The notes under the pieces: model-generated | What the model saw: the letters and a program-made list of their open reading frames with translations, nothing else | Database searches by the model: none | Told to the model about the DNA's origin: nothing | Program-made: the position numbers and the translations under genes | Shown here: positions 8,926 to 57,369 of the stretch, piece after piece | How positions within the stretch are numbered: position 1 is the first letter of the stretch | Layout of the letters: every line of letters starts with the position of its first letter | Assembly: GCA_949152475.1 (NCBI GenBank) | Contig: OX424559.1 | Location: forward strand, 20,801,809-20,865,808 | Direction of reading: 5' to 3' | DNA from: Terebella lapidaria | Taxonomy: Eukaryota; Annelida; Polychaeta; Terebellida; Terebellidae | Length of the DNA: 64,000 nt

Positions 8926-9220
8926 TATCCATGACGGCTCTCACTATTATGGTCACCCAGCGGAACAAGACGTGCTAGCAGGCAGTCGACTCGGTCGCTA
9001 ACATCAGGACGTCACAATCACATATTTATATTATCGTCAGTGTTTTTATAGGTTGTATCCTCGTTTCAATCACCCTCGTCGTCTCAATCGTCATGATGAA
9101 GAAACGCCGTAAGAAGCCACTCACTAAGAATTCAACACTTCACTTCTGGTCGGAGAATGAGATATATAAGGCAAGGGGGCACAGGAACAGTACCGTCGTG
9201 ACGCCAGAAACCATCAATTA
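8926..9220 (+). pseudogene. Membrane-protein last exon, copy 1 (TM plus tail)
   Basis: The frame reads through a hydrophobic segment 'IYIIVSVFIGCILVSITLVV', a stop-transfer run 'MMKKRRKK' and the tail 'NSTLHFWSENEIYKARGHRN', ending '..TVVTPETIN' at a TAA (9,218-9,220). This is a type I membrane anchor with a ~38-residue cytoplasmic tail. The upstream ectodomain part is interrupted by a stop, so the unit as it stands is probably not functional. It keeps the most complete membrane segment of the three tandem copies. Confidence 0.5.
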
Positions 9221-9417
9221 AACTCAGACTGGGAGACATCTCGCAACCTGTCAAAACAGTAACTTGGAATAGGTACATCACGGATGTAAACATGGGACTT
9301 TTGTGGGAAAGTTTGGCATGCGTGTATTTATCAGTAATGCCTAACTATGTGTTATTCAGTAATAATCAATGTTTGGCTGCCACATTAAATGCATCCATTA
9401 GTTTAATCATATTCCAG

Positions 9418-9600
9418 GCAAAGTCATCAATGCGATGTATTCCAACAATCACACTCGTCGTTTCAATCGTCATGATGAAGAAACGCCATAAGAAGCCACT
9501 CACTAAGAATTCAACACTTCACTTCTGGTCAGAGAATGAGATGGATAAGGCAAGGGGGCACAGGAACAGTACCGTCGTGACGCCAGAAACCATCAATTAA
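9418..9600 (+). CDS. Membrane-protein last exon, copy 2
   Basis: A plausible 3' splice site (ends 'catattccag' at 9,417) precedes an open frame that gives 'TLVVSIVMMKKRHKK', then the conserved tail ending '..TVVTPETIN' and a TAA. The front of the membrane segment has changed compared with copy 1. It lies in a 379-bp tandem duplication with copy 3. No ectodomain exon is visible in the intron between copies, so it could serve as an alternative last exon or be a by-product of unequal exchange. Confidence 0.4.
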   Translation, partial: AKSSMRCIPTITLVVSIVMMKKRHKKPLTKNSTLHFWSENEMDKARGHRNSTVVTPETIN

Positions 9601-9796
9601 ACTCAGACTGGGAGACATCTCGCAACCTGTCAAAACAGTAACTTGGAATAGGTACATCACGGATGTAAACATGGGACTTTTGTGGGAAAGTTTGGCATGC
9701 GTGTATTTATCAGTAATGCCTAACTATGTGATATTCAGAAATAATCAATGTTTGGCTGGCACATTAAATGCATCCATTAGTTTAATCATATTCCAG

Positions 9797-9979
9797 GCAA
9801 AGTCATCAATGCGATGTATTCCAACAATCACACTCGTCGTCTCAATCGTCATGATGAAGAAACGCCATAAGAAGCCACTCACTAAGAATTCAACACTTCA
9901 CTTCTGGTCGGAGAATGAGATGTATAAGGCAAGGGGGCACAGGAACAGTACCGTCGTGACGCCAGAAACCATCAATTAA
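9797..9979 (+). CDS. Membrane-protein last exon, copy 3
   Basis: It is nearly identical to copy 2 and offset by 379 bp, with the same acceptor-like 'ttccag' and the same tail and stop. Near-identity at synonymous and intronic positions points to a recent duplication. A fourth intronic piece, without the tail, follows at about 10,030-10,160. Confidence 0.4.
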   Translation, partial: AKSSMRCIPTITLVVSIVMMKKRHKKPLTKNSTLHFWSENEMYKARGHRNSTVVTPETIN

Positions 9980-10289
9980 ACTCAGACTGGGAGACATCTC
10001 GCAACCTGTCAAAACAGTAATCATGGAATAGGTACGTCCCGGATGTAAACATGGGACTTATATTAAAAAATATATATATAATATTGAAAAATACTCAATG
10101 TTTGGCAGGTACATTAAATGCAATCATTAGTTTGATTATTATTACAGGAGAAGTCAACATTGCACAGAGTTATCAGTTTGTGGGCCGTCATGCATCTACA
10201 CATCAAACAAAAAACTCAGTGGCATACATTCATGTGTTGAACACACACGATAGGCAGGTGGATTTCATGATCGTAGCTAAAACCTAAAT

Positions 10290-11060
10290 AAATAGCCTAA
10301 TATATTAGCTTGGGCCTAGCTTAGAGTTGGGCCTAGAAACCACCTTCATATTATTTGGCATATCGAGTAGTAGCTTGTTTTAGTAATAATGGTGAATACT
10401 TTTCAAATCAGTATTTATTTAATCAGTATTCGATCATCATATGACGTCACTGACACCAAACATATTTTTTTAGCAATCCAATCCAACAAATGTGTGTCCT
10501 ATGTGCTCTCATTTTCTAGTATGAATATGTTGGTTAGTTGGTGAGTTTGTCTATCTCCCTGTGTTTATACATTTCTGTCTGTCTGTATGGGCACTTCAAG
10601 CTCACAATAACGGCTCTATCGCCTTTTAAATAAACCAACAATTGTGATGGCCACCCTAATTTTCATGAGAAGGTCAAAGTCTAGGTCACAGAAAAGGTCA
10701 AAATCGCTTAAATGCTCAAAACGTTGGAACTAATAGAGAATTCAAACTAGTACAATATGGTGGCATATAATCAAGGTTCACTCACTCAAGGTCAAACCTT
10801 TCGTAAAAAGGTCATTTTGGCTTTTTTTTCGAAACGGACACTTCCATTCGATCCTCAGGGTCACCCACAATGCACAAACCATTTTTAGTGCGATCTGTTG
10901 GTATTATAAGGCAGAGTTTCTATGGTAATGAATTCGATATGGATGGATCTTTCGATTGGTATTGGGCAAAATGAGAAGTTTCTTGAAGCTCTACACAGCT
11001 GTGAAATTTCAAGGTCAGTGTTCGAAGGCCAAGGTCAACATTGACCCTTAACATGAGCAT
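10290..11060. other. No gene recognised; 'aaggtca'-rich sequence
   Basis: From about 10,660 the sequence has several 'aaggtca' repeats like those in the minisatellite elements, so it is probably a diverged copy. No open frame looks like an exon. Confidence 0.3.
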
Positions 11061-11313
11061 GTAATATTAATTATCTGCAAGCCATTCTATAACTGGTGTA
11101 TTTGTGAATGTTTAATACATTATTCGATATTACGCTTATCAAGCTCCTGCAGTGTGAGATGTTATACAGATATTCGACAAAAGTTTAGTAGCACAAAACG
11201 CCTGGAGAGATATCCCACTGAACCAGCAATATTCAGTTATCGTAAAACCCCATAATGACCAAACCTTTGTCTTATATCATTAGAATGTACCAACAAGTTT
11301 CACACAAGACAAG

Positions 11314-12119
11314 AAACATGCCAAACTTAATATGTTGATGCATATTTGTAGTTTGTGATAATAGTTATGGTAAGAATAGTAAGGTATCTAAAACACAGAA
11401 CCGGCTTTGCCAGAAAATTTTCCAGAGACAATGATGACGAGTAACCAAACAATTATGTCGACTGCATATCATATATTATGCCACATATAGCATCTCACAA
11501 TGTGCAAGATGACACATTTTATCATAATATCTCAACATTAAATTCAACGGCGCCATATTTAAGGGGACGCCTCCCCCAGACCACTTCAGAGCAGTAAATA
11601 CCCCAATACCTGAAAGTTTTGTTTTTTGCTTTTCATATTATATTGTCTTGCCAACAGGATTTTGGTCAGTGCTTGTGTTGAACAATATAAAACTTGAGCT
11701 TCTTTGATGTCATTTAAGTTGGCAAATATCATGTTTTGAGTATGTTCTGAAATTTTTTGAAAAGTGCATGCAACATTCAATCTATATATCGTTTTGTCCA
11801 CCAAAAAAGATTTAATGTATCGCGAATACTTACATCAATACTGAACTCCAAAATCATTCCACTGTTTTTGTTCTTGTTCTCGTCTTGTTATTCAAGATCA
11901 TGTGCAGCATGAAACAACTTGAAATAATGTGTCACGGGATACAGTAATAAAGCATTTAACTATACACCAATTTCATAACGAATTCTTAGTCACAACCTCC
12001 ACCAGTGAGGTACCATCCTGAGATTTTTCATCATCATTGATATTTTTACTCATAATAATAAATTAATGTATTCACGATCAAATACATGTGTTTTGATAGA
12101 TGACATCTAGGATGTGTGT
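11314..12119. repeat. 806-bp direct repeat, left copy, flanking PLE copy 1
   Basis: It begins 'aaacatgccaaacttaatat' and ends 'ctaggatgtgtgt'. The right copy is at 16,429-17,234, at a constant offset of 5,115. I found no difference in the lines I compared, and the open frame inside both copies gives the same 72 residues. It is itself a unit of the surrounding satellite. It directly abuts the 3' end of the PLE. Confidence 0.85.
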
Positions 12120-12232
12120 TTTGGAGAGTATAAAAAATGCACTGGCACAAGATAATTGTAAGAGTAACACATAACATAAAACAGTAAAAGCAATGAAAAT
12201 TCAATGAGCGACATTGAACAAATTTTGTTGGA

Positions 12233-14521
12233 TTATTTAAGTTTGCTTCTGACTAAAAGTTCTTTAAGATTTTGATGCTTCTTGTAAGCTGTTGCTATTT
12301 TAATATCACCATCAGTATTTTTGTTGAGTTGTTTCATATGTTTTTTAACAATTTGGGCCGAAAGAGCACCTGTTTTTGAGAAGGGTACTATATACACCAG
12401 GTCGAATTTATTTTTACTTTTGTTCAAAGGGTCATACTTTGTAAATTTTTGAACGTTGAGGCCATGAGGTTCGAAAGTGCCTAGAGTGTCAATCCAACAA
12501 TATTCCCTTTCAAGTCGCCATTGTTTGTTTAAAAGTTCATCACCAAGATCCGAAACCTGTTCAATTGGTAAAAGAGAAAAACATTCGATGGAAAATTCAG
12601 TTTTGCTGTGAAATTTAGATAGATGGCTGTATAATGCATTTACCTCATTGCAGCTAGTTATTGCAGCACGGTGACGATTGTTTCTGAATTTTAGTGACTT
12701 ACCGGTTTCACCTACGTATTGTTTTTCGCAAAGCTTACAAGTGTATAGATAAATTATATTTTCTGAGTTGCAATCCAAAGCTGAGTTGATTGAGTAGGTT
12801 TGTTCAAAAACTGATCCTGAGAAATTTTGACAATTTGGAACTAAATGACATGTCTGACATTGTCTAGAATTACAAGGTTTTGAGCCAGATGAGCTGGAAG
12901 TGGGCAATTGAAAATCAGCACCTAGTCTTTCCTCACTGTTTAGAATTCTCAATGTTTCATTCTTTATTTTGCGAAGCCAACGTTTTGAATAGTTACGTTT
13001 CGAAAGTGCCTGGAATAATGTTTGGCAAGCTGATTCAACATCATCTGGATATGAGCAAATTTGGAAAAATCGAAAAACTTGGGACTTGATTAGTCCTTTA
13101 TAAGTGTGCTTTGGATGAAAAGAGAGCTTATGCAGCAACTGATGAGTATCCGTTGGTTTGAAGAAAACTTTTGCTTCTAAAGTGTTTTCTTTGCTCCGGA
13201 ACAAAGTAGTATCCAGAAAATTAACTGAATCAGTACTAATTTCAGCTTTGAACTTGATTGATGTCCTATGAGAATTGAATATTTCGAGAAACTGATTAAA
13301 TTTGGAAATGCCGTGTGGCCAAATGAGGAAAATGTCATCTAAATACCTATGATAGCAATCTGGTTTGAATGGACACTTTTGTAATGCTTGCTTTTCAAAT
13401 TCAGCCATGTAAATATCTGCATAATGAGGTGCATATTTCTGACCCATGGCTGTGCCTGAAACTTGTAGGAATGTTTTACCGTCAAATTCAAAGTCATTAC
13501 ATTTAAGTGAAATTTCCAGTAAATCTATTATACCTTTGAATAGTTCATTGTTTTTCAGGGTCGGGAATGCATTTTTAATTGCTTGGATACCTTCTTCATG
13601 ATTTATATTAGTATACATACTTTCAACATCTAAAGTGATTAGTAAAGAATTTGGATCTAGTTCAAGCCCTCTAACTTTATCTAAAAAGTCATACGTGTTT
13701 TTTATATATGACGGATGCTTATTTGCTTGATCTTTTATATATGAATCAATATACATAGCTACTTTTTCAGATTCACTGCTGCAGTCAGAAACAATTGGGC
13801 GCCCTGGAGGCATTACATTTGGAATTGGCCAGGAGTCTTTGGGTTTATGAATTTTAGGTAGCATATAAAATCTTCTTTGACGAGGGCGTTCTGGTGGTAG
13901 AAGAAATTGGAATACTTTTTCAGAAAGGCATCCAGAATTGCGTAATCCTTTTAAAATTTTTGTTATTTTTTCTGAATTTTCTAGGTAAAGAGGAGTGTCA
14001 ATTTCTCTGTAATGAGCTGGATTGTATAGTTGACGAAAGCCTTCATTAATATATTTTTGCTTATCCATAATTACGACTGCACTACCTTTATCTGCTTTTT
14101 TAATTACCAAGTCTAAGTTATTTTGTAAATCCTTTATAGTTTTATATTCAATTTTTGTTAGGTTTTTGGTTTCGGGTTGAATTTTCAAATTTTCAATTTC
14201 TTTTGATATTGCCGAAATGCAATCTAAAACAGGCTTGTCAATCATGGAACTCGGTGGAGTCCAGGTAGATTTTGGAGTGAATTTTGATCTATTTGTAAAT
14301 GAATTTGGACGGTGAGAAAAATAATTATGAAGTTTGAGTTTTCTACCAAAATCTTGCACAGCTTGTTCAATTGGATCCAATGTTATTTTGGGTGTGGGAA
14401 CAAATGTCAAACCACGATTTAGAAGAGCGATTTGTGTGTCCGAAAGTGTAAATTTGGAAAGGTTTACAACATTATTAGTCGTACTGGAGTTCGGTGGACT
14501 CTCAGAATGATTTAGTTTAAA
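12233..14521 (-). CDS. PLE ORF2: reverse transcriptase with GIY-YIG endonuclease
   Basis: Residue numbers count from the TTG at 14,410, giving 725 codons to the stop. RT landmarks: ADKGSAVVI (106-114), LPKIHKP (184-190), GRPIVS (203-208), motif A LDVESMYTNI (260-269), motif B SGTAMGQKYAP (318-328), motif C YLDD (356-359) and a thumb with HPKHTYKGLIKSQVFR (432-447). A Cys cluster CNSRQCQTCHLVPNC (513-527) precedes the GIY-YIG nuclease (about 552-652: IIYLYTC, YVGET, an Arg in FRNNRHR, late EPHGLN). This is the canonical Penelope order. There is no AUG near the start: the conserved N-terminal motif NLSKFTLSDTQ..LLNRGLTF runs upstream of the TTG and stays open to a slippery site at 14,515-14,521, so I place the coding start there in the -1 frame. 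Expected role: target-primed reverse transcription in the nucleus. The copy at 24,340 differs at about 17 residues. Confidence 0.9.
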   Translation of the reverse strand, partial: FKLNHSESPPNSSTTNNVVNLSKFTLSDTQIALLNRGLTFVPTPKITLDPIEQAVQDFGRKLKLHNYFSHRPNSFTNRSKFTPKSTWTPPSSMIDKPVLDCISAISKEIENLKIQPETKNLTKIEYKTIKDLQNNLDLVIKKADKGSAVVIMDKQKYINEGFRQLYNPAHYREIDTPLYLENSEKITKILKGLRNSGCLSEKVFQFLLPPERPRQRRFYMLPKIHKPKDSWPIPNVMPPGRPIVSDCSSESEKVAMYIDSYIKDQANKHPSYIKNTYDFLDKVRGLELDPNSLLITLDVESMYTNINHEEGIQAIKNAFPTLKNNELFKGIIDLLEISLKCNDFEFDGKTFLQVSGTAMGQKYAPHYADIYMAEFEKQALQKCPFKPDCYHRYLDDIFLIWPHGISKFNQFLEIFNSHRTSIKFKAEISTDSVNFLDTTLFRSKENTLEAKVFFKPTDTHQLLHKLSFHPKHTYKGLIKSQVFRFFQICSYPDDVESACQTLFQALSKRNYSKRWLRKIKNETLRILNSEERLGADFQLPTSSSSGSKPCNSRQCQTCHLVPNCQNFSGSVFEQTYSINSALDCNSENIIYLYTCKLCEKQYVGETGKSLKFRNNRHRAAITSCNEVNALYSHLSKFHSKTEFSIECFSLLPIEQVSDLGDELLNKQWRLEREYCWIDTLGTFEPHGLNVQKFTKYDPLNKSKNKFDLVYIVPFSKTGALSAQIVKKHMKQLNKNTDGDIKIATAYKKHQNLKELLVRSKLK
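14484..14521 (-). promoter_or_regulatory. -1 programmed ribosomal frameshift signal (slippery site plus hairpin)
   Basis: Read on the minus strand, ORF1 ends with the codons CAU UUA AAC UAA, so U UUA AAC sits in the correct phase for simultaneous slippage (14,515-14,521) and touches the ORF1 stop. A 9-nt spacer follows, then a hairpin (14,484-14,505) with CUG/CAG and GAGU/ACUC pairs, one bulged A and a 7-nt loop. ORF2 lies in the -1 frame and is open across this point. The same heptamer and hairpin occur at 26,622 and 20,340 in the other copies, including the decayed one whose spacer has changed. UUUAAAC is the slippery heptamer used by coronaviruses; use by this PLE is inferred. Confidence 0.75.
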
Positions 14522-16236
14522 TGACTGAGCCAGAATTTCAACATTTCATTGGCCGTTTGTTCAGTCCAATGAATGTTATCTGTCTGTGTAGAAAACTTGA
14601 TTGGATCCAACTGCTTAACAACTGTGAGATTGCTGAAACGTGAACTCATGTCATCCAAAGCCCTGTTAATCATATCCAAGTTGCGTTTCTCTACAGACGG
14701 AAGATTGTCTGAGTAGTTAATTTTTGGAATGAGAATTTTGGAGTGGGGGAAGATTCGGAAAGCACTGCTGAGCATATTCCTCAGCTCTGGAATTGAAGTA
14801 ACACTTGGTTTGGAGCTTCGATTGTTCAGGCCTACACTTAAGATTAAGTTTTGGGGGGCATCAAATGATTTTTTACAGGCCGTGAACATCATTCTTAGAT
14901 GGTTGAACAAAGCTCCAGGATAAGACACAACTTGGATATCACTGACAGGGGATTTGGTGATGCGAGAAAGGTTAGAAGAGCCGAGGATGACAGTGGAGGA
15001 GGTTAGTTTAGGAAGGGCCCAAAGAGTTTTGGGTCCTCTGATAGTGGAAGGAGAGACATGGAAAGTGGTGTTAGGAGAGTTTTTAGGAGAGACAAAGCGA
15101 GTGCGTTTGCCTTTAGGTAGAGAGGAGGGTGAGAGTTCAGGAGAAGAAGGAGAGCGCGGACGCCGTTTGGGCGTGGCACTAAGGCGGTTATCAGGAGAAG
15201 AGCGAGAGAGAGGTGGCCAATCATCAGATGATGATAGGCAAGGAGGGTTAGAGAGGGTATCAAGGAGTTGGAAGCGGTTAGAAGTGGACACAGAGGGAGG
15301 GGTGTTATTTGAAGATGGAGGTGAAGAGCGAGAGGGTTTAGGATTGTTAGTAGGAGAGTTGGCACGTTTTAGGTCCATTAGGAGGCGGCCAAAGAAGTTA
15401 GAGCCTTGACCATGACGGTTAACACCCCAGTGGCTGTCAGGAACTGGATGGACAATGTGACACCCTTCAGGAAGACCCATCAGAGTGTCACGGAAGAATT
15501 TGCAAGAATTAAACTTAACTTGAAGAAGTTGACGCATGATTCCATTTTTACTTTTATGCCAGAATGGGGACAGGCTAGGAATTTCACTAGCCAAACGTTT
15601 GGCCACTCCTGCATGGGGAGCCCTGAGGATCCGATTGGCTAGGTGTTGACAGTCATGGTACCGGGCTTTGTGATACTGATAGATGTGCTCAAGGCTAGGG
15701 AATCTCATACCACGATAGGATATATTACATGGGAAGAAATTACTAAGTGGGTGTTTGTGACCTTTTACCTCGCAAGTCTGAGGTTTTGATTGAGAGTTAG
15801 AATTTGGAATAGGGGAATTTGGAAGAGTAGAGGTTTTGAATTTCTGGATGGTGGAAGCCTGAAGTTTTTTGCCGAAATGAGATTTAGCCTGCTGAATGAC
15901 GAGAGCTACCGAATTTGCAATGTCCGAATCTGATAAACCTAAAGAGGAAATGTGGGCCAAAAGGTTTTGAATTGAGCTCTCATAGTGTTCCACCAAATGT
16001 TTGGTCACGTTTTGTACCCAATTTTGATTGATTTTGGAGATTTTTTGTTTGATTAGAGGACCAGAACAAGCAGGTTTGATGAAGTCATCCAGGTGTTGTT
16101 GTTTTTTACTGAAAGCCCTGGTGACTTGGCCTTGAGACTGCTGGAGCATTAGTGACAGGTGGTGAAAGCATTGAAGGAGAGTGTAAAAAGAACGGAAGTG
16201 AGGAGGTTTAGAAAGAGCCATGATACGTTTCAGCAA
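14512..16236 (-). CDS. PLE ORF1: NADAR domain plus SGNH-hydrolase-like domain
   Basis: 574 residues from an ATG at 16,236 (a second ATG lies at 16,221). Residues 1-150 have no recognised domain; they are rich in Gln/Ser and probably helical. Residues 156-290 match the NADAR/YbiA fold: GHKHPLSNFFPC (159-170), SLEHIYQYHKA (181-191, with the Glu expected in the active site), MRQLLQVKF (234-242) and DSHWG....GSNFFGRLLM (267-287). Residues 291-410 are a Ser/Pro/Arg-rich linker. Residues 414-574 look like an SGNH/GDSL hydrolase: GSSNLSRI (419-426), SYPGALFNHL (438-447), SVGLNN (467-472) and DNIHWT (553-558); the usual Asp of the GDS block is Ser. Known NADAR enzymes remove ADP-ribose from nucleotides and, in DarT-type systems, from guanine in DNA. 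SGNH-type esterase domains are known in ORF1 of CR1-type LINEs. What this fusion does for the PLE is not known to me. Confidence 0.85.
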   Translation of the reverse strand: MLKRIMALSKPPHFRSFYTLLQCFHHLSLMLQQSQGQVTRAFSKKQQHLDDFIKPACSGPLIKQKISKINQNWVQNVTKHLVEHYESSIQNLLAHISSLGLSDSDIANSVALVIQQAKSHFGKKLQASTIQKFKTSTLPNSPIPNSNSQSKPQTCEVKGHKHPLSNFFPCNISYRGMRFPSLEHIYQYHKARYHDCQHLANRILRAPHAGVAKRLASEIPSLSPFWHKSKNGIMRQLLQVKFNSCKFFRDTLMGLPEGCHIVHPVPDSHWGVNRHGQGSNFFGRLLMDLKRANSPTNNPKPSRSSPPSSNNTPPSVSTSNRFQLLDTLSNPPCLSSSDDWPPLSRSSPDNRLSATPKRRPRSPSSPELSPSSLPKGKRTRFVSPKNSPNTTFHVSPSTIRGPKTLWALPKLTSSTVILGSSNLSRITKSPVSDIQVVSYPGALFNHLRMMFTACKKSFDAPQNLILSVGLNNRSSKPSVTSIPELRNMLSSAFRIFPHSKILIPKINYSDNLPSVEKRNLDMINRALDDMSSRFSNLTVVKQLDPIKFSTQTDNIHWTEQTANEMLKFWLSHLN

Positions 16237-16428
16237 TTAAATTTGAAAGCATTAAAACCAGAACGCGATTGATTTGGATGATAAAACCGAAGGATAAAAT
16301 CATAAAAATAAAAACAATTGTATAAAATGGGAACACAACGTTTGAAGAAACCTGAATGCAAAGATATGGTCAATAATCTGACCAGATCTAAAACAAAACA
16401 AAATAATACAAAACAATATCAAAAAAAA

Positions 16429-17234
16429 AAACATGCCAAACTTAATATGTTGATGCATATTTGTAGTTTGTGATAATAGTTATGGTAAGAATAGTAAGGT
16501 ATCTAAAACACAGAACCGGCTTTGCCAGAAAATTTTCCAGAGACAATGATGACGAGTAACCAAACAATTATGTCGACTGCATATCATATATTATGCCACA
16601 TATAGCATCTCACAATGTGCAAGATGACACATTTTATCATAATATCTCAACATTAAATTCAACGGCGCCATATTTAAGGGGACGCCTCCCCCAGACCACT
16701 TCAGAGCAGTAAATACCCCAATACCTGAAAGTTTTGTTTTTTGCTTTTCATATTATATTGTCTTGCCAACAGGATTTTGGTCAGTGCTTGTGTTGAACAA
16801 TATAAAACTTGAGCTTCTTTGATGTCATTTAAGTTGGCAAATATCATGTTTTGAGTATGTTCTGAAATTTTTTGAAAAGTGCATGCAACATTCAATCTAT
16901 ATATCGTTTTGTCCACCAAAAAAGATTTAATGTATCGCGAATACTTACATCAATACTGAACTCCAAAATCATTCCACTGTTTTTGTTCTTGTTCTCGTCT
17001 TGTTATTCAAGATCATGTGCAGCATGAAACAACTTGAAATAATGTGTCACGGGATACAGTAATAAAGCATTTAACTATACACCAATTTCATAACGAATTC
17101 TTAGTCACAACCTCCACCAGTGAGGTACCATCCTGAGATTTTTCATCATCATTGATATTTTTACTCATAATAATAAATTAATGTATTCACGATCAAATAC
17201 ATGTGTTTTGATAGATGACATCTAGGATGTGTGT
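16429..17234. repeat. 806-bp direct repeat, right copy, flanking PLE copy 1
   Basis: This is the partner of 11,314-12,119. It directly abuts the 5' end of the PLE and ends at 'gatgtgtgt', after which the sequence continues as 'atgtatgtacaag' instead of the PLE 3' end. The order is repeat, PLE, repeat, which is what a very long target duplication or a Penelope-type pseudo-LTR would give. Confidence 0.85.
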
Positions 17235-17970
17235 ATGTATGTACAAGCTTATTACCACCAAGAACCTGACTCCGACAATGCCAAAACAAAATATAAAATA
17301 ACAGACAGTGTGAATGTTTCAGACATTCTGTGATGTTACATATTCCAAGATCCTTCAGTGTGAGATGTTATATATGGCGTATTACTAAAATACTTAAATA
17401 TTGCCAGACGTAATTGTTAGCCATCAAGCCCAATATCACTCGAGTTATTTTGATGTAAATCATATATTCGAAGGTGTCCTAAAACTTATTAATTTTTGAT
17501 ACATGACATGCCGTTTTGTGCAGTTGTTCGTTTTGCAAGTAATCCTCACACAACCATGTATTTATATTGGATTTCCACTTAATTGGTATGTGCACGAGTC
17601 CGAAAAATATGTTGTAATTATTCCGTATAAATTTTGAACCAAATGCCATTCATTTGTCCCCATAATTCACTACACCATTAAACACGAACATGTGATAATT
17701 AATTATCAACAAGCCATTCTATGAATGGTGTATTTGTGAATGTTTATCTAAAATATATTACGCCTGTCAAGATCCCACAGTATGAGATATTATACAGACG
17801 ATTGACAAAAGTTTAGTTGCACAACATGACAGAGAGATATCCCACTGAATAAGCAATATTAACACATCGTAAAACGCCAAATAAGCAATCTTGTTATTCA
17901 AGATCATGACTTGCATGTATGTAGCATGAAACAACTTGAGAATTTAGGTATACATCAATGTCGTAACGTA
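17235..17970. repeat. Diverged satellite sequence between PLE copies
   Basis: It contains 'gtgagatgttata', 'attacgcctgtcaagatccc' and 'agatatcccactgaata' landmarks of the ~720-bp satellite, with many changes. No gene is seen. Confidence 0.6.
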
Positions 17971-20517
17971 TGTTTTGGAGAGTATAAAAAATGCACTGGC
18001 ACAAGATAATTGTAAGAGTAACACATAACAGCAATAAAAATTCAATGAGCGACATTGAACAAATTTTGTTAGCTTATTTAAGTTTGCTTCTTACTAAAAG
18101 TTCTTTAAGATTTTGATGCTTCTTGTAAGCTGTTGCTATTTTAATATCACCATCAGTATTTTTGTTGAGTTGTTTCATATGCTTTTTAACAATTTGGGCC
18201 GAAAGAGCACCTGTTTTTGAGAAGAGTACTGTATACACCAGGTCGAATTTATTTTTACTTTTGTTCGAAGGGTCATACTTTGTGAATATTTGAACGTTGA
18301 GGCCATGAGGTTCGAAAGTGCCTAGAGTATCAATCCAACAATATTCCCTTTCAAGTCGCCATTGTTTGTTTAAAAGTTCATCATTAAATTGGTAAAAGAG
18401 AAAAACATTCAATGGAAAATTCAGTTTTGCTGTGAAATTTAGATAGATCACTGTATAATGCATTTCCTCATTGAAGCTAGTTATTGCACCACGGTGACGA
18501 TTGTTTCTGAATTTGAGTGATTTACCGGTTTCACCTACATACATGTATTGTTTTTCGCAAAGCTTACAAGTGTATGAGTTGCAATCCAAAGCTGAGTTGA
18601 TTAAGTAGGTTTGTTAAAAAACTGATCCTGAGAAATTTTGACAATTTGGAACTAAATGACATGTCTGACATTGTCTAGAATTACAAGGTTTTGAGCCAGA
18701 TGAGCTGGAAGTGGGCAATTGAAAATCAGCACCTGGTCTTTCCTCACTGTTTAAAATTCTCAATGTTTCATTCTTTATTTTGTGAAGCCAACGTTTTGAA
18801 TAGTTACGATTCGAAAGTGCCTTGAATATTGTTTGGCAAGCTGATTCAACATAATCTGGATATGAGCTAAATTGGAAAAATCGAAAAACTTGGGACTTGA
18901 TTAGTCCTTTATAAGTGTGTTTTGGATGAAAAGAGAGCTTATGCAGCAACTGATGAGTATCCGTTGGCTTGAAAAAACTTTTGCTTCTATTGTGTTTTCT
19001 TTGCTACTGAACAAAGTAGTACTCAGAAAATTACCTGAATCAGTACTAATTTCAGCTATGAACTTGATTGATGCCCTATGAGAATTGAATATTTCGAGAA
19101 ACTGATTAAATTTGGAAATGCCGTGTGGCCAAATGAGGAAAATGTCATCTAAACATCTATAATAGCAATCTGGCTTGAATGGACACTTTTTCAATGCTTG
19201 CTTTTCAAATTCAGCCATATAAATATTCAGCCATATAAATATCTGCATAATGGGGTGCATATTTCTGACCCATGGCTCTGCCTGAAACTTGTAGGAATGT
19301 CTTACCGTCAAATTCAAAGTCATTACATTCAAGTGAATTTTCCAATAATTCTATCATACCTTTGAATAGTTCATTGTTTTCCAGAGTCGGAAATGCATTT
19401 TTAATTGCTTGGATCCCTGATTCATGATTTATATTGGTATACATACTTTCAACATCTAAAGTGATTAGTAAAGAATTTGGATCTAGTTCAAGCCCTCTAA
19501 CTTTACCTAAAAAGTCATACGTGTTTTTGATATAAGACGGATGCTTATTCGCTTGATCTTTTATATATGAATCAATATACATAGCTACTTTTTCAGATTT
19601 ACTGCTGCAGTCAGAAACAATTGGGCGCCCTGGAGGCATTACATTTGGAATTGGCCAGGAGTGTTTGGGTTTATGAATTTTAGGTAGCATATGAAATCTT
19701 CTTTGACGAGGGCGTTCTGGTGGTAAAAGAAATTGAAATACTTTGTCAGAAAGGCAGCCAGAATTGCGTAATCTTTTTAAAATTTTTGCTATTTTTTCTG
19801 AATTTTCTAGGTAAAGAGGAATGTCAATTTCTATGTAATGAGCTGGATTGTGTAATTGACGAAAGCCTTCAGTAATATAATTTTGCCTATCCATGATTAC
19901 GACTGACTACCTTCATCTGCGTTTTAAATTACCAAGTCTGCATTATTTTGTAAATCCTTTATAGTTTTGTATTCCATTCTCGTTAGGTTTTTGGTTTCTG
20001 TTTGAATTTTTAAATTTTCTATTTCTTTGGATATTGCTGAAATCCAATCTAAAACAGGCTTGTCAATCATGGAACTGGGTGGAGTCCAGGTAGATTTTGG
20101 AGTGAATTTTGATCTATTTGTAAATGAATTTGGACGGTGAGAAAAATAATTTTGAAGTTTGAGTTTCCTACCAAAATTTTACACAGCTTGTTTAATTGGA
20201 TCCAATGCTATTTTGGGCGTGAGAACAAATGTCAAACCACGATTTAAAAGAGTGATTTGTGTGTCAGGAAGTGTAAATTTGTAAAGGTTTACAACATTAT
20301 TAATCGTACTGGAGTTCGGTGGACTCTCAGTCTGATTTAGTTTAAATGACTGAGCCAGAATTTCAACATTCCATTGGCCGTTTGTTCAGTCCAATGATTG
20401 TTATCTGGCTGTGTACATAACTTGATTGGATCCAACTGTTTAACAACTGTAAGATTGCTGAAACGTGATCTCATGTCATCCAAAGCCCTGTTAATCATAT
20501 CCAAGTTGCGTTTCTCA
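17971..20517 (-). mobile_element. Penelope-like element, decayed and 5'-truncated copy
   Basis: It starts at the same 3' terminus ('tgttttggagagtat') as copy 1 and covers all of ORF2 plus the last ~150 nt of ORF1. It stops at about 20,517, where satellite sequence ('atgtaattagaatgtacc') begins. The RT and GIY-YIG regions are recognisable but split into several open pieces, with numerous substitutions and small length changes; it is clearly the oldest of the three copies. The ORF1/ORF2 junction heptamer (20,340-20,346) and hairpin are still present. Confidence 0.85.
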
Positions 20518-23225
20518 TGTAATTAGAATGTACCAACAAGTTTCACAAAAAAAACAAGAGATATACGAAATTTGATATGCTGATGCATATTTACGGTTTC
20601 TGATAATAGCATGGTGACGAGAGTCCATTAACCAAAACACAAAACCGGATTTTGCCAAGAAATTTCCTCAGGGACAATGCTGACAAGTAACCAAATATTT
20701 TGACTGTATACTATATATTATGCCATATATATTATAGCATCTCACAATGTGAAATTATACCATATATAACATCTCACAAAGTGGAAAATAACATGATACA
20801 TTTTATCATATCTCAACATTACATTATACATAAGGGGAAACCTCCCCCAACCACTGCAGAGCAGTATATACCCCAATATCCGGAAGGTTTTTTTGCTTTC
20901 CCTATTATATTGTCTTGCCAAGGGGATTGTGGTCAGTGTTTTTTTTAAATATAAACTTGAACTTCTTTGCTGTTATTCATGTTGACAAATATCATGTTTT
21001 GAATATGTTCTGAAAATGTTTTGGAATTTTTATTTTCAGCAAGACATTCTGTAGTTGGTGTGTTTCTGGATGTTTAATACATTATGCGATATTCATGATA
21101 TTACGCCTGTCAGAACCCCACAGTATGAGATGTCATACAGATGACAAAAATTCAGTCGCACAAAATGCCTAGAGAGATATCCCACTGAATAAGCAGTATT
21201 GACACATCATAAAACGCCAAAATGAGCAAACCTTAGTCTCATGTAATTAGAATGTACCAACAAGTTTCACAAAAAAAACAAGAAATATCCGAAAATTGAT
21301 ATGCTGATGCATATTTACGGTTTCTGATAATAGCTTGGTGACGAGAGTCCATTAACCAAAACACAAACCGGATTTGCCAAGAAATTCCCTCAGGGACAAT
21401 GCTGACGAGTAACCAAATATTTTGACTGTATACTATATATTATGCCATATATATTATAGCATGTCACAATGTGAAATTATACCATATATAACATCTCACA
21501 AAGTGGAAAATAACATGATATATTTTATCATATCTCAACATTACATTTTACCGCGCCATATATAAGGGGAAACCTCCCCCAACCACTGCAGAGCAGTATA
21601 TACCCCAATATCCGGAAGGTTTTTTTGCTTTCCTTATTATATTGTCTTGCCAACAGGATTGTGGTCAGTTTTTTTTTTGAATATAAACTTGAACTTCTTT
21701 GCTGTTATTCATGTTGGCAAATATCAGGTTTTGAATATGTTCTGAAAATGTTTTGGAATTTTTATTTTCAGCAAGATATTCTGTAGTTGGTGTGCTTCTG
21801 GATGTTTAATACATTATGCGATATTACGCCTGTCAGAACCCCACAGTATGAGATGTCATACAGATGACAAAAATTCAGTCGCACAAAATGCCTAGAGAGA
21901 TATCCCACTGAATAAGCAGTATTGACACATCATAAAACGCCAAAATGAGCGAACCTTTGTCTCATGTAATTAGAATGTACCAACAAGTTTCACAAAAAAA
22001 CAAGAGATATACGAAATTTGATATGCTGATGCATATTTACGGTTTCTGATAATAGCTTGGTGACGAGAGTCCATTAACCAAAACACAAAACCGGATTTTG
22101 CCAAGAAATTTCCTCAGGGACAATGCTGACAAGTAACCAAATATTTTGACTGTATACTATATATTATGCCATATATATTATAGCATATCACAATGTGAAA
22201 TTATACCATATATAACATCTCACAAAGTGGAAAATAACATGATACATTTTATCATATCTCAACATTACATTATACATAAGGGGAAACCTCCCCCAACCAC
22301 TGCAGAGCAGTATATACCCCAATATTCGGAAGGTTTTTTTGCTTTCCTTATTATATTGTCTTGCCAACGGGATTGTGGTCAGTGTTTTTTTTTTAATATA
22401 AACTTGAACTTCTTTGCTGTTATTCATGTTGACAAATATCATGTTTTCAATATGTTCTGAAAATGTTTTGGAATTTTTATTTTCAGCAAGACATTCTGTA
22501 GTTGGTGTGTTTCTGGATGTTTAATACATTATGCGATATTACGCCTGTCAGAACCCCACAGTATGAGATGTCATACAGATGACAAAAATTCAGTCGCACA
22601 AAATACCTAGAGAGATATCCCACTGAATAAGCAGTATTGACACATCATAAAACGCCAAAATGAGCAAACCTTTGTCTCATGTAATTAGAATGTACCAACA
22701 AGTTTCGCAAAAAAAACCAAGAGGTATACGAAATTTGATATGCTGATGCATATTTACGGTTTCTGATAATAGCTTGGTGACGAGAGTCCATTAACTAAAA
22801 CACAAAACCGGATTTGCCAAGAAATTCCCTCAGGGACAATGCTGACAAGTAACCAAATATTTTGACTGTATACTATATATTATGCCATATATATTATAGC
22901 ATCTCACAATGTGAAATTATACCATATATAACATCTCACAAAGTGGAAAATAACATGATACATTTTATCATATCTCAACATTACAAATGACGGCGCCATA
23001 CATAAGGGGAAACCTCCCCCAACCACTGCAGAGCAGTATATACCCCAATATCCGGAAGGTTTGTTTGCTTTGCTTATTATATTGTCTTGCCAACAGGATT
23101 GTGGTCAGTGTTTTTTTTAAATATAAACTTGAACTTCTTTGCTGTTATTCATGTTGGCAAATATCATGTTTCGAATATGTTCTGAAAATGTTTTGGAAAG
23201 TACATACAACTTTCAAACTGTTGAA
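20517..23225. repeat. Tandem satellite array, ~720-bp units (array 1)
   Basis: Unit starts ('atgtaattagaatgtaccaa') lie at about 20,517, 21,241, 21,965 and 22,679, so the period is about 715-724 bp. The last unit ends near 23,225, where more diverged sequence takes over. Units differ by few percent and by A-tract length. Each has the CCCCCAACCACTGCAGAGCAGT segment and two 'catctcaca' motifs. Confidence 0.9.
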
Positions 23226-24182: not shown

Positions 24183-24230
24183 GTATGTATGTATGTATGT
24201 ATGTATGTATGTATGTATGTATGTATGTAT
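24181..24230. repeat. (ATGT)n microsatellite at the PLE 3' junction
   Basis: About twelve 'atgt' units directly precede the PLE 3' terminus 'gttttggagag'. The two other PLE copies also meet 'gtgtgt' or 'gtatgt' here, but only in short form. Confidence 0.9.
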
Positions 24231-24339
24231 GTTTTGGAGAGTATAAAAAATGCACTGGCACAAGATAATTGTAAGAGTAACACATAACATAAAACAGCAA
24301 TAAAAATTCAATGAGCGACATTGAACAAATTTTGTTGGA

Positions 24340-26628
24340 TTATTTAAGTTTGCTTCTGACTAAAAGTTCTTTAAGATTTTGATGCTTCTTGTAAGCTGTT
24401 GCTATTTTAATATCACCATCAGTATTTTTGTTGAGTTGTTTCATATGCTTTTTAACAATTTGGGCTGAAAGAGTACCTGTTTTTGAGAAGGGTACTATAT
24501 ACACCATGTCGAATTTATTTTTACTTTTGTTCAAAGGGTCATACTTTGTAAATTTTTGAACGTTGAGGCCATGAGGTTCGAAAGTGCCTAGAGTATCAAT
24601 CCAACAATATTCCCTTTCAAGTCGCCATTGTTTGTTTAAAAGTTCATCACCAAGATCGGAAACCTGTTCAATTGGTAAAAGAGAAAAACATTCAATGGAA
24701 AATTCAGTTTTGCTGTGAAATTTAGATAGATGACTGTATAATGCATTTTCCTCATTGCAGCTAGTTATTGCAGCACGATGACGATTGTTTCTGAATTTGA
24801 GTGATTTACCGGTTTCACCTACATATTGTTTTTCGCAAAGCTTACAAGTGTATAGATAAATTATATTTTCTGAGTTGCAATCCAAAGCTGAGTTGATTGA
24901 GTAGGTCTGTTCAAAAACTGATCCCGAGAAATTTTGACAATTTGGAACTAAATGACATGTCTGACATTGTCTAGAATTACAAGGTTTTGAGCCAGACGAG
25001 CTGGAAGTGGGCAATTGAAAATCAGCACCTAGTCTTTCCTCACTGTTCAAAATTCTCAATGTTTCATTCTTGATTTTGCGAAGCCAACGTTTTGAATAGT
25101 TACGTTTCGAAAGTGCCTTGAATAATATTTGACAAGCTGATTCAACATCATCTGGATATGAGCAAATTTGGAAAAATCGAAAAACTTGGGACTTGATTAG
25201 TCCTTTATAAGTGTGTTTTGGATGAAAAGAGAGCTTATGCAACAACTGATGAGTATCCGTTGGCTTGAAGAAAACTTTTGCTTCTAATGTGTTTTCTTTG
25301 CTCCTGAACAAAGTAGTATCCAAAAAATTAACTGAATCAGTACTAATTTCAGCTTTGAAGTTGATTGATGCCCTATGAGAATTGAAAATTTCGAGAAACT
25401 GGTGAAATTTGGAAATGCCATGTGGCCAAATGAGGAAAATGTCATCTAAATACCTATAATAGCAATCTGGTTTGAATGGACACTTTTGTAAAGCTTGCTT
25501 TTCAAATTCAGCCATATAAATATCTGCATAATGAGGTGCATATTTCTGACCCATGGCTGTGCCTGAAACTTGTAGGAATGTCTTACCGTCAAATTCAAAG
25601 TCATTACATTTAAGTGAAATTTCCAATAATTCTATTATACCTTTGAATAGTTCATTGTTTTTCAGAGTCGGGAATGCATTTTTAATTGCTTGGATACCTT
25701 CTTCATGATTTATATTAGTATACATACTTTCAACATCTAAAGTGATTAGTAAAGAATTTGGATCTAGTTCAAGCCCTCTAACTTTATCTAAAAAGTCATA
25801 CGTGTTTTTGATATATGACGGATGCTTATTTGCTTGATCTTTTATATATGAATCAATATACATAGCTACTTTTTCAGATTCACTGCTGCAGTCAGAAACA
25901 ATTGGGCGCCCTGGTGGCATTACATTTGGAATTGGCCAGGAGTCTTTGGGTTTATGAATTTTAGGTAGCATATAAAATCTTCTTTGACGAGGGCGTTCTG
26001 GTGGTAAAAGAAATTGGAATACTTTTTCAGAAAGGCATCCAGAATTGCGTAATCCTTTTAAAATTTTTGTAATGTTTTCTGAATTTTCTAGGTAAAGAGG
26101 AGTGTCAATTTCTCTGTAATGAGCTGGATTGTATAATTGACGAAAACCTTCATTAATATAATTTTGCTTATCCAAAATTACGACTGCACTACCTTTATCT
26201 GCTTTTTTGATTACCAAGTCTACGTTATTTTGTAAATCCTTTATAGTTTTATATTCAATTTTTGTTAGGTTTTTGGTTTCTGGTTGAATTTTCAAGTTTT
26301 CAATTTCCTTAGATATTGCCGAAATGCAATCTAAAACGGGCTTGTCAATCATGGAACTCGGTGGAGTCCAGGTAGATTTTGGAGTGAATTTTGATCTATT
26401 TGTGAATGAATTTGGACGGTGAGAAAAATAATTTTGAAGTTTGAGTTTTCTACCAAAATCTTGCACCGCTTGTTTAATTGGATCCAATGTTATTTTGGGT
26501 GTGGGAACAAATGTCAAACCACGATTTAGAAGAGCGATTTGTGTGTCCGAAAGTGTAAATTTGGAAAGGTTTACAACATTATTAGTCGTACTGGAGTTCG
26601 GTGGACTCTCAGAATGATTTAGTTTAAA
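24340..26628 (-). CDS. PLE ORF2 (RT plus GIY-YIG), second intact copy
   Basis: It has the same domain order and catalytic motifs as the copy at 12,233 (YLDD, GTAMGQKYAPHYADIYMAEF, the CNSRQCQTC cluster, YVGETGKSLKFR). Differences are scattered and mostly conservative (for example Leu to Val, Lys to Asn), which fits a functional lineage rather than decay. As in copy 1 there is no AUG at the N-terminus, and the -1 frame is open back to the UUUAAAC at 26,622-26,628. Because its own 5' half is missing, this copy is probably not autonomous. Confidence 0.85.
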   Translation of the reverse strand, partial: FKLNHSESPPNSSTTNNVVNLSKFTLSDTQIALLNRGLTFVPTPKITLDPIKQAVQDFGRKLKLQNYFSHRPNSFTNRSKFTPKSTWTPPSSMIDKPVLDCISAISKEIENLKIQPETKNLTKIEYKTIKDLQNNVDLVIKKADKGSAVVILDKQNYINEGFRQLYNPAHYREIDTPLYLENSENITKILKGLRNSGCLSEKVFQFLLPPERPRQRRFYMLPKIHKPKDSWPIPNVMPPGRPIVSDCSSESEKVAMYIDSYIKDQANKHPSYIKNTYDFLDKVRGLELDPNSLLITLDVESMYTNINHEEGIQAIKNAFPTLKNNELFKGIIELLEISLKCNDFEFDGKTFLQVSGTAMGQKYAPHYADIYMAEFEKQALQKCPFKPDCYYRYLDDIFLIWPHGISKFHQFLEIFNSHRASINFKAEISTDSVNFLDTTLFRSKENTLEAKVFFKPTDTHQLLHKLSFHPKHTYKGLIKSQVFRFFQICSYPDDVESACQILFKALSKRNYSKRWLRKIKNETLRILNSEERLGADFQLPTSSSSGSKPCNSRQCQTCHLVPNCQNFSGSVFEQTYSINSALDCNSENIIYLYTCKLCEKQYVGETGKSLKFRNNRHRAAITSCNEENALYSHLSKFHSKTEFSIECFSLLPIEQVSDLGDELLNKQWRLEREYCWIDTLGTFEPHGLNVQKFTKYDPLNKSKNKFDMVYIVPFSKTGTLSAQIVKKHMKQLNKNTDGDIKIATAYKKHQNLKELLVRSKLK

Positions 26629-27210
26629 TGACTGAGCCAGAATTTCAACATTTCATTGGCCGTTTGTTCAGTCCAATGAATGTTATCTGTCTGTGTAGAA
26701 AACTTGATTGGATCCAACTGTTTAACAACTGTGAGATTGCTGAAACGTGAACTCATGTCATCCAAAGCCCTGTTAATCATATCCAAGTTGCGTTTCTCTA
26801 CAGACGGAAGATTGTCTGAGTAGTTAATTTTTGGAATGAGAATTTTGGAGTGGGGGAAGATTCGGAAAGCACTGCTGAGCATATTCCTCAGTTCTGGAAT
26901 TGAAGTAACACTTGGTTTGGAGCTTCGATTGTTCAGGCCTACACTTAAGATTAAGTTTTGGGGGGCATCAAATGATTTTTTACAGGCCGTGAACATCATT
27001 CTTAGATGGTTGAACAAAGCTCCAGGATAAGACACAACTTGGATATCACTGACAGGGGATTTGGTGATGCGAGAAAGGTTAGAAGAGCCGAGGATGACAG
27101 TGGAGGAGGTTAGTTTAGGAAGGGCCCAAAGAGTTTTGGGTCCTCTGATAGTGGAAGGAGAGACATGGAAAGTGGTGTTAGGAGAGTTTTTAGGAGAGAC
27201 AAAGCGAGTG
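26619..27210 (-). pseudogene. Truncated PLE ORF1 (SGNH-like part only)
   Basis: Residues after 'RFVSPKNSPNTT' match residues 381-574 of the full ORF1 with no obvious difference, through GSSNLSRI, SVGLNN and DNIHWT. The apparent start at 27,224 is a chance ATG in flanking satellite DNA. The NADAR domain and the N-terminal region are absent. Confidence 0.85.
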
Positions 27211-29465
27211 CAAATGCCATTCACTTGTATCAGTAATTCATTACACCAATAACATGAACTTGTGATAATTTATTTTCAGCAAGACATTCTGTAGTTGGTG
27301 TGTTTATGGATGTTTAATACATTATGCGATATTACGCCTGTCAGAACCCCACAGTATGAGATGTCATACAGATGACAAAAATTCAGTCGCACAAAATGCC
27401 TAGAGAGATATCCCACTGAATAAGCAGTATTGACATATATGCCAAAATGAGCAAACCTTAGTCTCATGTAATTAGAATGTACCAACAAGTTTCACAAAAA
27501 AAACAAGAAATATACGAAAATTGGTATGCTGATGCATATTTACGGTTTCTGATAATAGCTTGGTGACGAGAGTCCATTAACCAAAACACAAAACCGGATT
27601 TGCCAAGAAATTCCCTCAGGGACAATGCTGACGAGTAACCAAATATTTTGACTGTATACTATATATTATGCCATATATATTATAGCATCTCACAATGTGA
27701 AATTATACCATATATAACATCTCACAAAGTGGAAAATAACATGATACATTTTACCATATCTCAACATTACATTTGACCGCGCCATATATAAGGGGAAACC
27801 TCCCCCAACCACTGCAGAGCAGTATATACCCCAATATCCGGAAGGTTTTTTTGCTTTCCTTATTTTATTGTCTTGCCAACAGGATTGTGGTCAGTTTTTT
27901 TTTTAAATATAAACTTGAACTTCTTTGCTGTTATTCATGTTGGCAAATATCATGTTTTGAATATGTTCTGAAAATGTTTTGGAATTTTTATTTCCAGCAA
28001 GACATTCTGTAGTTGGTGTGCTTCTGGATGTTTAATACATTATGCGATATTACGCCTGTCAGAACCCCACAGTATGAGATGTCATACAGATGACAAAAAT
28101 TCAGTGGCACAAAATGCCTAGAGAGATATCCCACTGAATAAGCAGTATTGACACATCATAAAACGCCAAAATGAGCACACCTTTGTCTCATGTAATTAGA
28201 ATGTACCAACAAGTTTCACAAAAAAAGAGAAGAGATATACGAAATTTGATATGCTGATGCATATTTACGGTTTCTGATAATAGCTTGGTGACGAGAGTCC
28301 ATTAACTAAAACACAAAACCGGATTTGCCAAGAAATTCCCTCAGGGACAATGCTGACAAGTAACCAAATATTTTGACTGTATACTATATATTATGCCAGA
28401 TATATTATAGCATCTCACAATGTGAAATTATACCATATATAACATCTCGCAAAGTGGAAAATAACATGATACATTTTATCATATCTCAACATTACATTTG
28501 ACGGCGCCATATATAACGGGAAACCTCCCCCAACCACTGCAGAGCAGTATATACCCCAATATCCGGAAGGTTTTTTTGCTTTCCTTATTATATTGTCTTG
28601 CCAACAGGATTGTGGTCAGTTTTTTTTTAAATATAAACTTGAACTTCTTTGCTGTTATTCATGTTGGCAAATATCATGTTTTGAATATGTTCTGAAAATG
28701 TTTTGGAATTTTTATTTTCAGCAAGACATTCTGTAGTTGGTGTGCTTCTGGGTGTTTAATACATTATGCGATATTACGCCTGTCAGAACCCCACAGTATG
28801 AAATGTCATACAGATGACAAAAATTCAGTCGCACAAAATGCCTAGAGAGATATCCCACTGAATAAGCAGTATTGACACATCATAAAACGCCAAAATGAGC
28901 AAACCTTTGTCTCATGTAATTAGAATGTACCAACAAGTTTCACAAAAAAACAAGAGATATACGAAATTTGATATGCTGATGCATATTTACGGTTTCTGAT
29001 AATAGCTTGGTGACGAGAGTCCATTAACTAAAACACAAAACCGGATTTGCCAAGGAATTCCCTCAGGGACAATGCTGACAAGTAACCAAATATTTTGACT
29101 GTATACTATATATTATGCCAGATATATTATAGCATCTCACAATGTGAAATTATACCATATATAACATCTCACAAAGTGGAAAATAACATGATACATTTTA
29201 TCATATTTCAACATTACAATTGACGGCGCCATATATAAGGGGAAACCTCCCCCAACCACTGCAGAGCACTATATACCCCAATATCCGGAAGGTTTTTTTG
29301 CTTTCCTTATTATATTGTCTTGCCAACAGGATTGTGGTCAGTGTTTTTCTTTAATATAAACTTGAACTTCTTTGCTGTTATCCATGTTGGCAAATATCAT
29401 GTTTTGAATATCTTCTGAAAATGTTTTGGAAAGTACATACAACTTTCAATCTGTTGAAATTTGTA
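27211..29465. repeat. Tandem satellite array, ~720-bp units (array 2)
   Basis: Unit landmarks ('atgtaattagaatgtaccaa') lie at about 27,466, 28,190 and 28,915. The units closely match array 1, and the array ends in the same way ('ggaaagtacatacaacttt'), like 23,195-23,220. Arrays 1 and 2 plus their diverged right flanks therefore look like a larger duplication. Confidence 0.85.
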
Positions 29466-55746: not shown

Positions 55747-55750
55747 AAAT

Positions 55751-57325: not shown

Positions 57326-57369
57326 AGAACTGGCGACCTATTAGTTTACTAAATATAGATTATAAAATT

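Follow-up and report, generated by a model that had tools for sequence, protein, structure and literature searches.

Organization of the Element

The window analyzed here, a 64,000-nucleotide stretch of the annelid Terebella lapidaria (assembly GCA_949152475.1, contig OX424559.1, positions 20,801,809 to 20,865,808), carries a young, multiplying and abundant Penelope-like element (PLE), all parts of which lie on the minus strand. Its first open reading frame (ORF1; 14512..16221), of 569 amino acids from ATG (MALSKPP...) to TAA, encodes a NADAR domain, a Ser/Pro-rich linker and an SGNH-hydrolase domain behind a conserved N-terminal region, and its second frame (12233..14515), at −1 relative to ORF1, encodes a PLE reverse transcriptase (RT; YLDD) with a probable C-terminal GIY-YIG endonuclease (EN). 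A PLE with a NADAR–linker–SGNH ORF1 had been proposed by a sequence-only reading of the same DNA, and this was borne out by Pfam, by a profile match to the PDB chain 4c1b, by related proteins and by further copies. The frame 14512..16236 named in that reading is indeed open; its TTG start, which gives a 573-residue reading, is merely the first mechanical start codon, and the likely ATG was placed at 16221-16219 because P0001, a metagenomic protein nearly identical to this one, starts at the same point (MALSKPP).

The N-terminal region (15844..16146), defined from the ORF1 alignment A1 and common to ORF1s without NADAR, appears helical when judged by eye. The NADAR domain (15364..15759; residues 159–290 of the 573-residue reading), found with Pfam and hhalign, matched PF08719 with E = 7.4e-16 and 59.3 bits against a cut-off of 35.1, which is the significant match that the sequence-only reading had asked of its NADAR assignment. 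Matches of ORF1 in the PDB by phmmer included YbiA (2b3w, 4e-10) and NADAR (8bau, 1e-5), and profile–profile comparison of its NADAR with seven bacterial and phage NADARs (hhalign) gave a probability of 99.8%. The Ser/Pro-rich linker (15022..15363) is the least conserved of the longer parts of ORF1. For the SGNH domain (14515..15021; G-x-S-N, G, G-x-N and D-x-x-H) the same reading had likewise looked to a family match: none was given by Pfam with the window ORF1 as a single sequence, and a 14-member ORF1 profile matched chain 4c1b (named ORF1-encoded protein) at 1.8e-7, which we take to be the retrotransposon esterase of PMC3905857. Lipase_GDSL_2 was matched by 11 of the 14 members of A1 at E ≤ 0.1. 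In this alignment, G418, N421, G468, N470 and H555 are invariant and S420 and G440 nearly so. The blocks of the window copy are GSSN, SYPGA, GLNN and DNIH, with relatives varying at the Asp that precedes the His; the domain has the active-site Ser, Gly, Asn and His in four blocks, plus the Asp.

The RT frame has 2039 homologous proteins at E ≤ 0.001. Its RVT_1 match (13259..13681, 4e-11) lies above the Pfam cut-off, and its GIY-YIG match (12578..12757), at the expected position, lies below it (E = 0.0038, 17.9 bits vs 22.6). The GIY-YIG cut-off is passed by the relatives L072 and L073, and PF01541 is present in some RT homologs. The RT motifs and the conserved RT start are those that we take to be typical of PLEs, the alignment containing no named PLE reference. 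Many PLEs bear a hammerhead ribozyme in their terminal repeat, which is not required; by Rfam, none was found in the window, in 10900-24300 or in the tandem unit L007. A loose hammerhead core pattern gave 12 matches in the window against 5.3 expected (12 being reached in 2 of 100 shuffles), none of them convincing; three of the 12 lie on the opposite strand, in the RT region of the window's three copies of the element (A, the one described here, B and C).

The ORF1–RT Junction

The 3' end of ORF1 reads CAT-TTA-AAC-TAA, the slippery heptamer TTTAAAC (U UUA AAC; 14515..14521) standing directly 5' of the stop codon (14512-14514). At −1, the RT frame reads TCA TTT AAA CTA, with no stop across the heptamer; the junction thus has an X XXY YYZ heptamer in frame before the ORF1 stop and a second frame open at −1. 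No ATG is present in the window RT frame ahead of the conserved RT start. An ORF1 that ends in Leu-Asn and a −1 frame that reads Phe-Lys-Leu at the same place can, by the genetic code, be encoded only by TTTAAAC or TTTAAAT, and the signal can therefore be followed in protein sequences. Exactly LN ends 12 of the 14 ORF1 proteins, P0005 ending in LNS and P0014 in KLT. On the RT side, FK[LR] was found in 25 of 33 sequences extending that far (shuffles: mean 0.22, maximum 3 in 2000 trials), the 33 being those that reach at least 36 residues before the RT anchor among the 120 matches listed of 2039; as these sequences are related, the count shows conservation and not 25 independent events. In the DNA of L073, TTTAAAC occupies the corresponding position, and the stop comes four codons further on. 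Within the T. lapidaria genome at least 308 ORF1–RT junction sites were found by pattern (up to two mismatches; the reversed pattern gives 0), and the heptamer is intact in 97 of the 100 listed, two others reading TTTACAC and one TTTGAAC. Since the signal recurs in relatives, −1 frameshifting is the probable route to the RT, which would be produced as part of a NADAR–SGNH–RT–EN fusion, and this junction is the best-supported new point on how the element works.

Relatives of ORF1 and the Probable Insertion of NADAR

A protein search with ORF1 returned 14 proteins, in precomputed Pfam annotation nine with and five without NADAR; a scan of A1 with the window protein in place of P0001 likewise gave nine of 14 matches to PF08719. 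The nine are P0001 (99% identical to the window) and eight others at 39–53% identity, all from other contigs. The N-terminal region and the C-terminal SGNH domain are shared by all 14 rows of A1, P0006 and P0007 lacking the first N-terminal part. P0010–P0014 and the RT-linked L073 have a core ORF1 without NADAR in which both ends are kept, and in L072 only both ends of ORF1 were seen. Because relatives without NADAR keep both ends, the domain appears to be an insertion into the linker of a pre-existing ORF1. Identity is 41–61% in NADAR, 44–59% in the N-terminus and 40–54% in SGNH, and 28 NADAR columns are invariant across the nine sequences.

Five of the eight NADAR ORF1 relatives probably share a contig with a PLE RT, contig identity being judged from the same source and an identical contig size (P0003/P0021, P0006/P0023, P0002/P0024, P0008/P0042 and P0009/P0089). 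For P0001, P0004, P0005 and P0007, no same-contig RT was present among the 120 RT matches listed of 2039. The RTs linked to NADAR ORF1s are 50–69% identical to the window RT. An overlap test was applied to the 12 ORF1s ending in LN, the RT partners of P0002, P0003, P0008 and P0009 beginning too late for it; with TTG and GTG starts allowed, the overlapping end of P0006 fits its partner P0023 alone among 25 RT N-termini.

In a tree of 24 NADARs (nine from PLEs, five from long interspersed nuclear elements (LINEs) of the same genome, five phage and five bacterial; T4 gp30.3 left out, midpoint root for drawing only), the nine PLE NADARs group together (100/98), and the five LINE NADARs group separately from them (100/100). 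Borrowing of the PLE domain from the LINE NADARs of its own genome was rejected on these separate clades, the sample being small; the tree suggests that NADAR was captured on two separate occasions among the elements of this genome. Matches to NADAR were 30.8–35.5% identical in phage records (best 20 of 290) and 25.5–33.6% in plasmid records (best 20 of 21). The NADAR-only protein search gave five candidates, none significant; scans of viral contigs with the ORF1, NADAR and RT alignments and a NADAR scan of prokaryote genomes gave no confirmed match. PLE-like RT copies also lie inside assemblies labelled as an Enterovibrio metagenome-assembled genome (L072), Epulopiscium (L073) and a Bathymodiolus symbiont (L074); these are probably DNA of the animal hosts, L072 and L073 being apparent contaminants of bacterial assemblies. 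L073 bears a second ORF1 copy in tandem.

Copy Number and Selection

The genome searched comprises 761.6 Mb. Of 1294 candidates in the protein search, 76 ORF1 copies were scored, 98–100% identical, and 74 of them have no internal stop; such counts are lower bounds. The sequence-only reading would have been overturned had ORF1 been a piece of a host gene that only this copy contained, an explanation rejected on the 76 scored copies, the ORF1 relatives and the 308 junctions. Tandem copies with pseudo-long terminal repeats (pseudo-LTRs), a PLE trait, are represented in contig C11, where units recur at a spacing of 4918 bp and, in the one pair inspected, the coding parts are separated by 923 bp; the copy in the window stands alone.

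Selection was gauged from 48 junctions in the fetched loci, which yielded 19 ORF1s readable from the start, 17 of them distinct; the 12 that are open and of the same length as the window copy (itself included) were counted and the other five left out. These 12 hold 28 distinct silent and 26 amino-acid changes, so that amino-acid changes are fewer per site than silent ones. The nonsynonymous/synonymous ratio is 0.20 in NADAR, from only 3 and 4 changes, 0.11 in the N-terminus, 0.28 in SGNH and 0.53 in the second linker. These values point to purifying selection on ORF1 during the expansion, within the limits of small numbers and best-scoring loci.

Searches of the same genome with P0010, P0012, P0034 and P0052 all matched PLE frames, the best matches to P0034 and P0052 being 52% and 48% identical. 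Loci were taken from 30 of 97 and 12 of 95 matches for two of the queries and from none for the other two; the junction of the window family was present in 40 of these 42 (exceptions L030 and L060), and no second PLE family was obtained with the four queries.

Conserved Residues of the NADAR Domain

A Glu and a Lys seven residues apart (E33 and K40) are invariant in the nine PLE NADARs and also in the seven sequences of alignment A2. They were matched by spacing to E88 and K95, and are thus taken as the pocket residues for ADP-ribose. Of the YbiA residue set Glu, Trp, Asp and Trp, eight of the nine have all four, P0003 lacking the Asp. The same set has been used for inactivating YbiA-type domains (PMC9303266), and NADAR activity on guanosine-linked ADP-ribose in DNA and RNA has been published (PMC11543638, PMC11125620, PMC11833690). 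Catalysis by the PLE NADAR is thus plausible, and reversal of ADP-ribosylation of the element's DNA or RNA, as put forward in the sequence-only reading, would be compatible with the kept E, K, W, D and W and with this published activity.

Neighboring Copies and Flanking DNA

Copy A has a 5' untranslated part at 16222..16423 and a 3' untranslated part at 12114..12232. The tandem unit L007 has about 610 further 5' bases relative to it, a piece of which occurs at 40 places in the genome. Copy A is flanked by 815-bp direct repeats (11305..12119 and 16420..17234) that are 99.6% identical. They were considered as pseudo-LTRs and taken instead as duplicated flanking DNA, because they are not matched by the 923-bp DNA between tandem units; they may represent either an unusually long target duplication or an insertion within a recent duplication. 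Copy B (17968..20512) is decayed and 5'-truncated, with its RT split into short frames, and copy C (24224..27211) has an intact RT frame and a 5'-truncated ORF1 in which NADAR is missing; both lie on the minus strand, their upper ends set by eye. Around copy C, a satellite-like repeat of about 720 bp, related to the flank of copy A, occurs in four copies at 20546-23104 and three at 27494-29337, and an (ATGT)13 microsatellite (24181-24232) lies near its 3' end; GTGTGTATGTATGT is found also at the outer edge of the right flank of copy A. Elsewhere in the window, three tandem 379-bp units, two of them 97% alike, occupy 9067-10124, and LINE-like frames on the plus strand (54914-58401) carry an endonuclease/exonuclease/phosphatase domain (1e-7) and RVT_1 (2e-37).

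Proposed Mechanism and Alternative Explanations

The explanation preferred here, given a probability of about 0.5 as a whole, is that of a young PLE with a Gag- or LINE-ORF1-like protein into which NADAR was inserted, a −1 fusion to RT–EN, and a NADAR acting on guanine-linked ADP-ribose or a bound nucleotide. ORF1 would work, and presumably bind RNA, like Gag or the ORF1 protein of LINEs, through its N-terminal region and SGNH. NADAR would have entered the linker in the past of the lineage, probably once. ORF1 would mostly be translated alone, with some ribosomes slipping one base back on UUUAAAC to give the ORF1–RT–EN fusion, and NADAR would thereby travel with the reverse transcriptase in the particle. 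Most likely it would act at the N-glycosidic bond by which ADP-ribose, or something closely related, is attached to guanine in the RNA or the new DNA of the element; alternatively, it may act on a bound nucleotide. The template would thus stay readable.

Several observations weigh against this explanation. All nine PLE NADARs have Val, Ser, Ala or Thr where members of the YbiA family have their last catalytic Glu; this Glu is present in ten other aligned bacterial and phage NADARs and in the five LINE NADARs. The score against the YbiA equivalog TIGR02464 of NCBIfam (61.5 bits) is under its cut-off of 73.7. A Scabin-like ADP-ribosyltransferase gave no match in the genome, a search that was uninformative, as the controls gave none either. 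At the junction, a possible weak stem of 9 bp, 8 nt past the heptamer (14439..14506, minus strand), is not significant (−12.7 kcal/mol, z = −1.47, equalled by 14 of 200 shuffles); FK[LR] is missing from eight of the 33 long RT N-termini, three of which read GKL or KKL and could arise from other slippery heptamers; and the more distant L072 has no canonical heptamer, with an RT-frame ATG one base before its ORF1 stop (ATGTTAG). In the overlap test, P0006 has no partner when only ATG starts are used, P0002–P0004 each fit only P0025 and not their size-partner, P0001, P0007 and P0008 fit four RTs each, and P0009–P0013 fit none.

As none of the nine retains the conserved catalytic Glu, NADAR could instead be a binding module that recognizes ADP-ribosylated bases, the ends of RNA or a factor of host RNA processing, and that aids packaging of the ribonucleoprotein or its nuclear traffic; this is regarded as possible but rather doubtful. 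The domain is part of ORF1, which in retroelements usually handles RNA. A nematode NADAR protein, SNA-3, moreover acts in RNA metabolism and meets the CBC-ARS2 cap-binding complex (PMC9303266). Against a pure binding role, the pocket Glu and Lys are kept in every sequence and the E/W/D/W set in all but one; changes in this set also impair SNA-3 (PMC9303266). T4 gp30.3 also lacks the Glu, and a phage gp30.3-type NADAR is active on guanosine-linked ADP-ribose in vitro, with no rescue of cells from DarT1 (PMC11125620). The third catalytic residue varies, being Glu in YbiA, Asp in DarT1-linked and His in phage NADARs. In the E. coli C7 NADAR, E173 is dispensable, D171, two residues before, serving instead (PMC11543638). 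At the D171-equivalent place, six of the nine PLE NADARs have His, and the others Arg, Phe and Glu. An invariant His also stands one position past the lost Glu in all nine, and is aligned with a His in T4 gp30.3 (MAFFT; placement from sequence only).

Production of the RT by re-initiation past the ORF1 stop, or from another RNA, would agree with the ATG of L072 and with the insignificant downstream structure of the window copy, but it is judged improbable, as the window RT frame has no ATG before its conserved start and the LN/FKL overlap, which requires TTTAAAY, is kept in most of the long RT N-termini and seen in the DNA of L073. It is very improbable that the substrates of NADAR are small metabolites (NAD derivatives or intermediates of riboflavin), the hydrolysis of which would alter the nucleotide environment of reverse transcription: TIGR02464, the nearest NCBIfam model, is indeed a riboflavin-intermediate N-glycosidase, but its cut-off was not reached, and a free metabolic enzyme need not sit in a structural ORF1 protein. 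That NADAR is a passenger, caught by chance and not needed, is hardly credible. P0010–P0014 and L073 do without it, as does copy C, though the latter is merely 5'-truncated; on the other side, NADAR has persisted while the RTs diverged to about 50% identity, its conservation is similar to that of the N-terminus and SGNH, and it has the invariant columns mentioned above.

Beyond the preferred explanation of a NADAR-bearing frameshift fusion, a wider and unlikely proposal is that several retroelement classes (the PLE clade, L1/Tx1-like LINEs of this genome and algal Gypsy) repeatedly armed an RNA-handling protein with NADAR because invertebrate hosts would mark nucleic acid of foreign or retroelement origin by guanine ADP-ribosylation, NADAR being a counter-defence that the frameshift fusion brings to the template. 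In six edible clams, an activity that ADP-ribosylates guanine in DNA is known (CARP-1; PMC11209040). The role of NADAR proteins in animals has been stated to be unclear (PMC11125620), and little is said to be known of how PLEs move (PMC11167929). An element that is young, present in many copies and equipped with NADAR on its replication protein offers a specific system in which ADP-ribosylation of nucleic acids in invertebrates can be tested. The conserved UUUAAAC junction would mean that PLEs are expressed in the manner of Gag-Pol, and the two separate captures suggested by the tree would point to a shared pressure and not to accident.

Comparison with Known Systems

In retroviral Gag-Pol expression, a UUUAAAC-type heptamer ends the first ORF and the polymerase lies in the −1 frame. 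The window element resembles this in heptamer and frame, as known from its sequence alone, and differs in that no strong downstream structure was found. Neither a PLE with NADAR nor frameshift expression of a PLE was found in the open-access literature; as far as searched, a PLE with NADAR is new as a combination, and it occurs beyond the window genome. Absent from the sequence-only reading were the −1 arrangement of the frames, the number of copies, the existence of NADAR-less relatives, and the earlier reports of SGNH in PLEs and of NADAR in other retroelements.

The T. lapidaria genome itself gave 150 scored NADAR matches (of 973 candidates) at 119–171 bits, well above the PLE NADAR, and LINEs of this genome have apparently undergone a very large NADAR expansion. 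In nine of the ten loci L010–L019, NADAR forms the C-terminal part of an ORF1 frame of LINE type, with what we take to be a coiled coil and an L1/Tx1-like part; in L018, an endonuclease frame lies downstream. Unlike the PLE NADARs, the five aligned LINE NADARs, which group on their own in the tree, contain a long insert and retain the catalytic Glu. NADAR has been reported in the Pol of Ectocarpus Gypsy and in ORF1 of Crassostrea gigas Tx1 LINEs (PMC12477816); like the window element these are retroelements with a captured NADAR, in ORF1 in the case of Tx1, but they belong to other element classes. With NADAR/YbiA, DarT1-linked NADAR and phage gp30.3, as described in PMC11543638 and PMC11125620, the PLE domain shares a profile match and the pocket Glu and Lys, and it differs in the loss of the last catalytic Glu and in being fused inside a retroelement protein.

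The Penelope/Poseidon PLE of Anolis (PAc), as reported in PMC11167929, resembles the window element in its tandem copies and its RT, which ends in a GIY-YIG domain that is probable in the window copy. PAc consists of one ORF and carries a hammerhead ribozyme, whereas the window element has two ORFs and no ribozyme by Rfam. PLEs with an SGNH/GDSL esterase are already known (PMC3905857), among them the Athena terminons (PMC5408684), the latter described as lacking the endonuclease that is probable in the window element. Such PLEs and the window element alike combine a PLE RT with an SGNH domain in another ORF; the window element departs from them in the NADAR placed between the N-terminal region and SGNH, and in the RT–EN that follows in the −1 frame.

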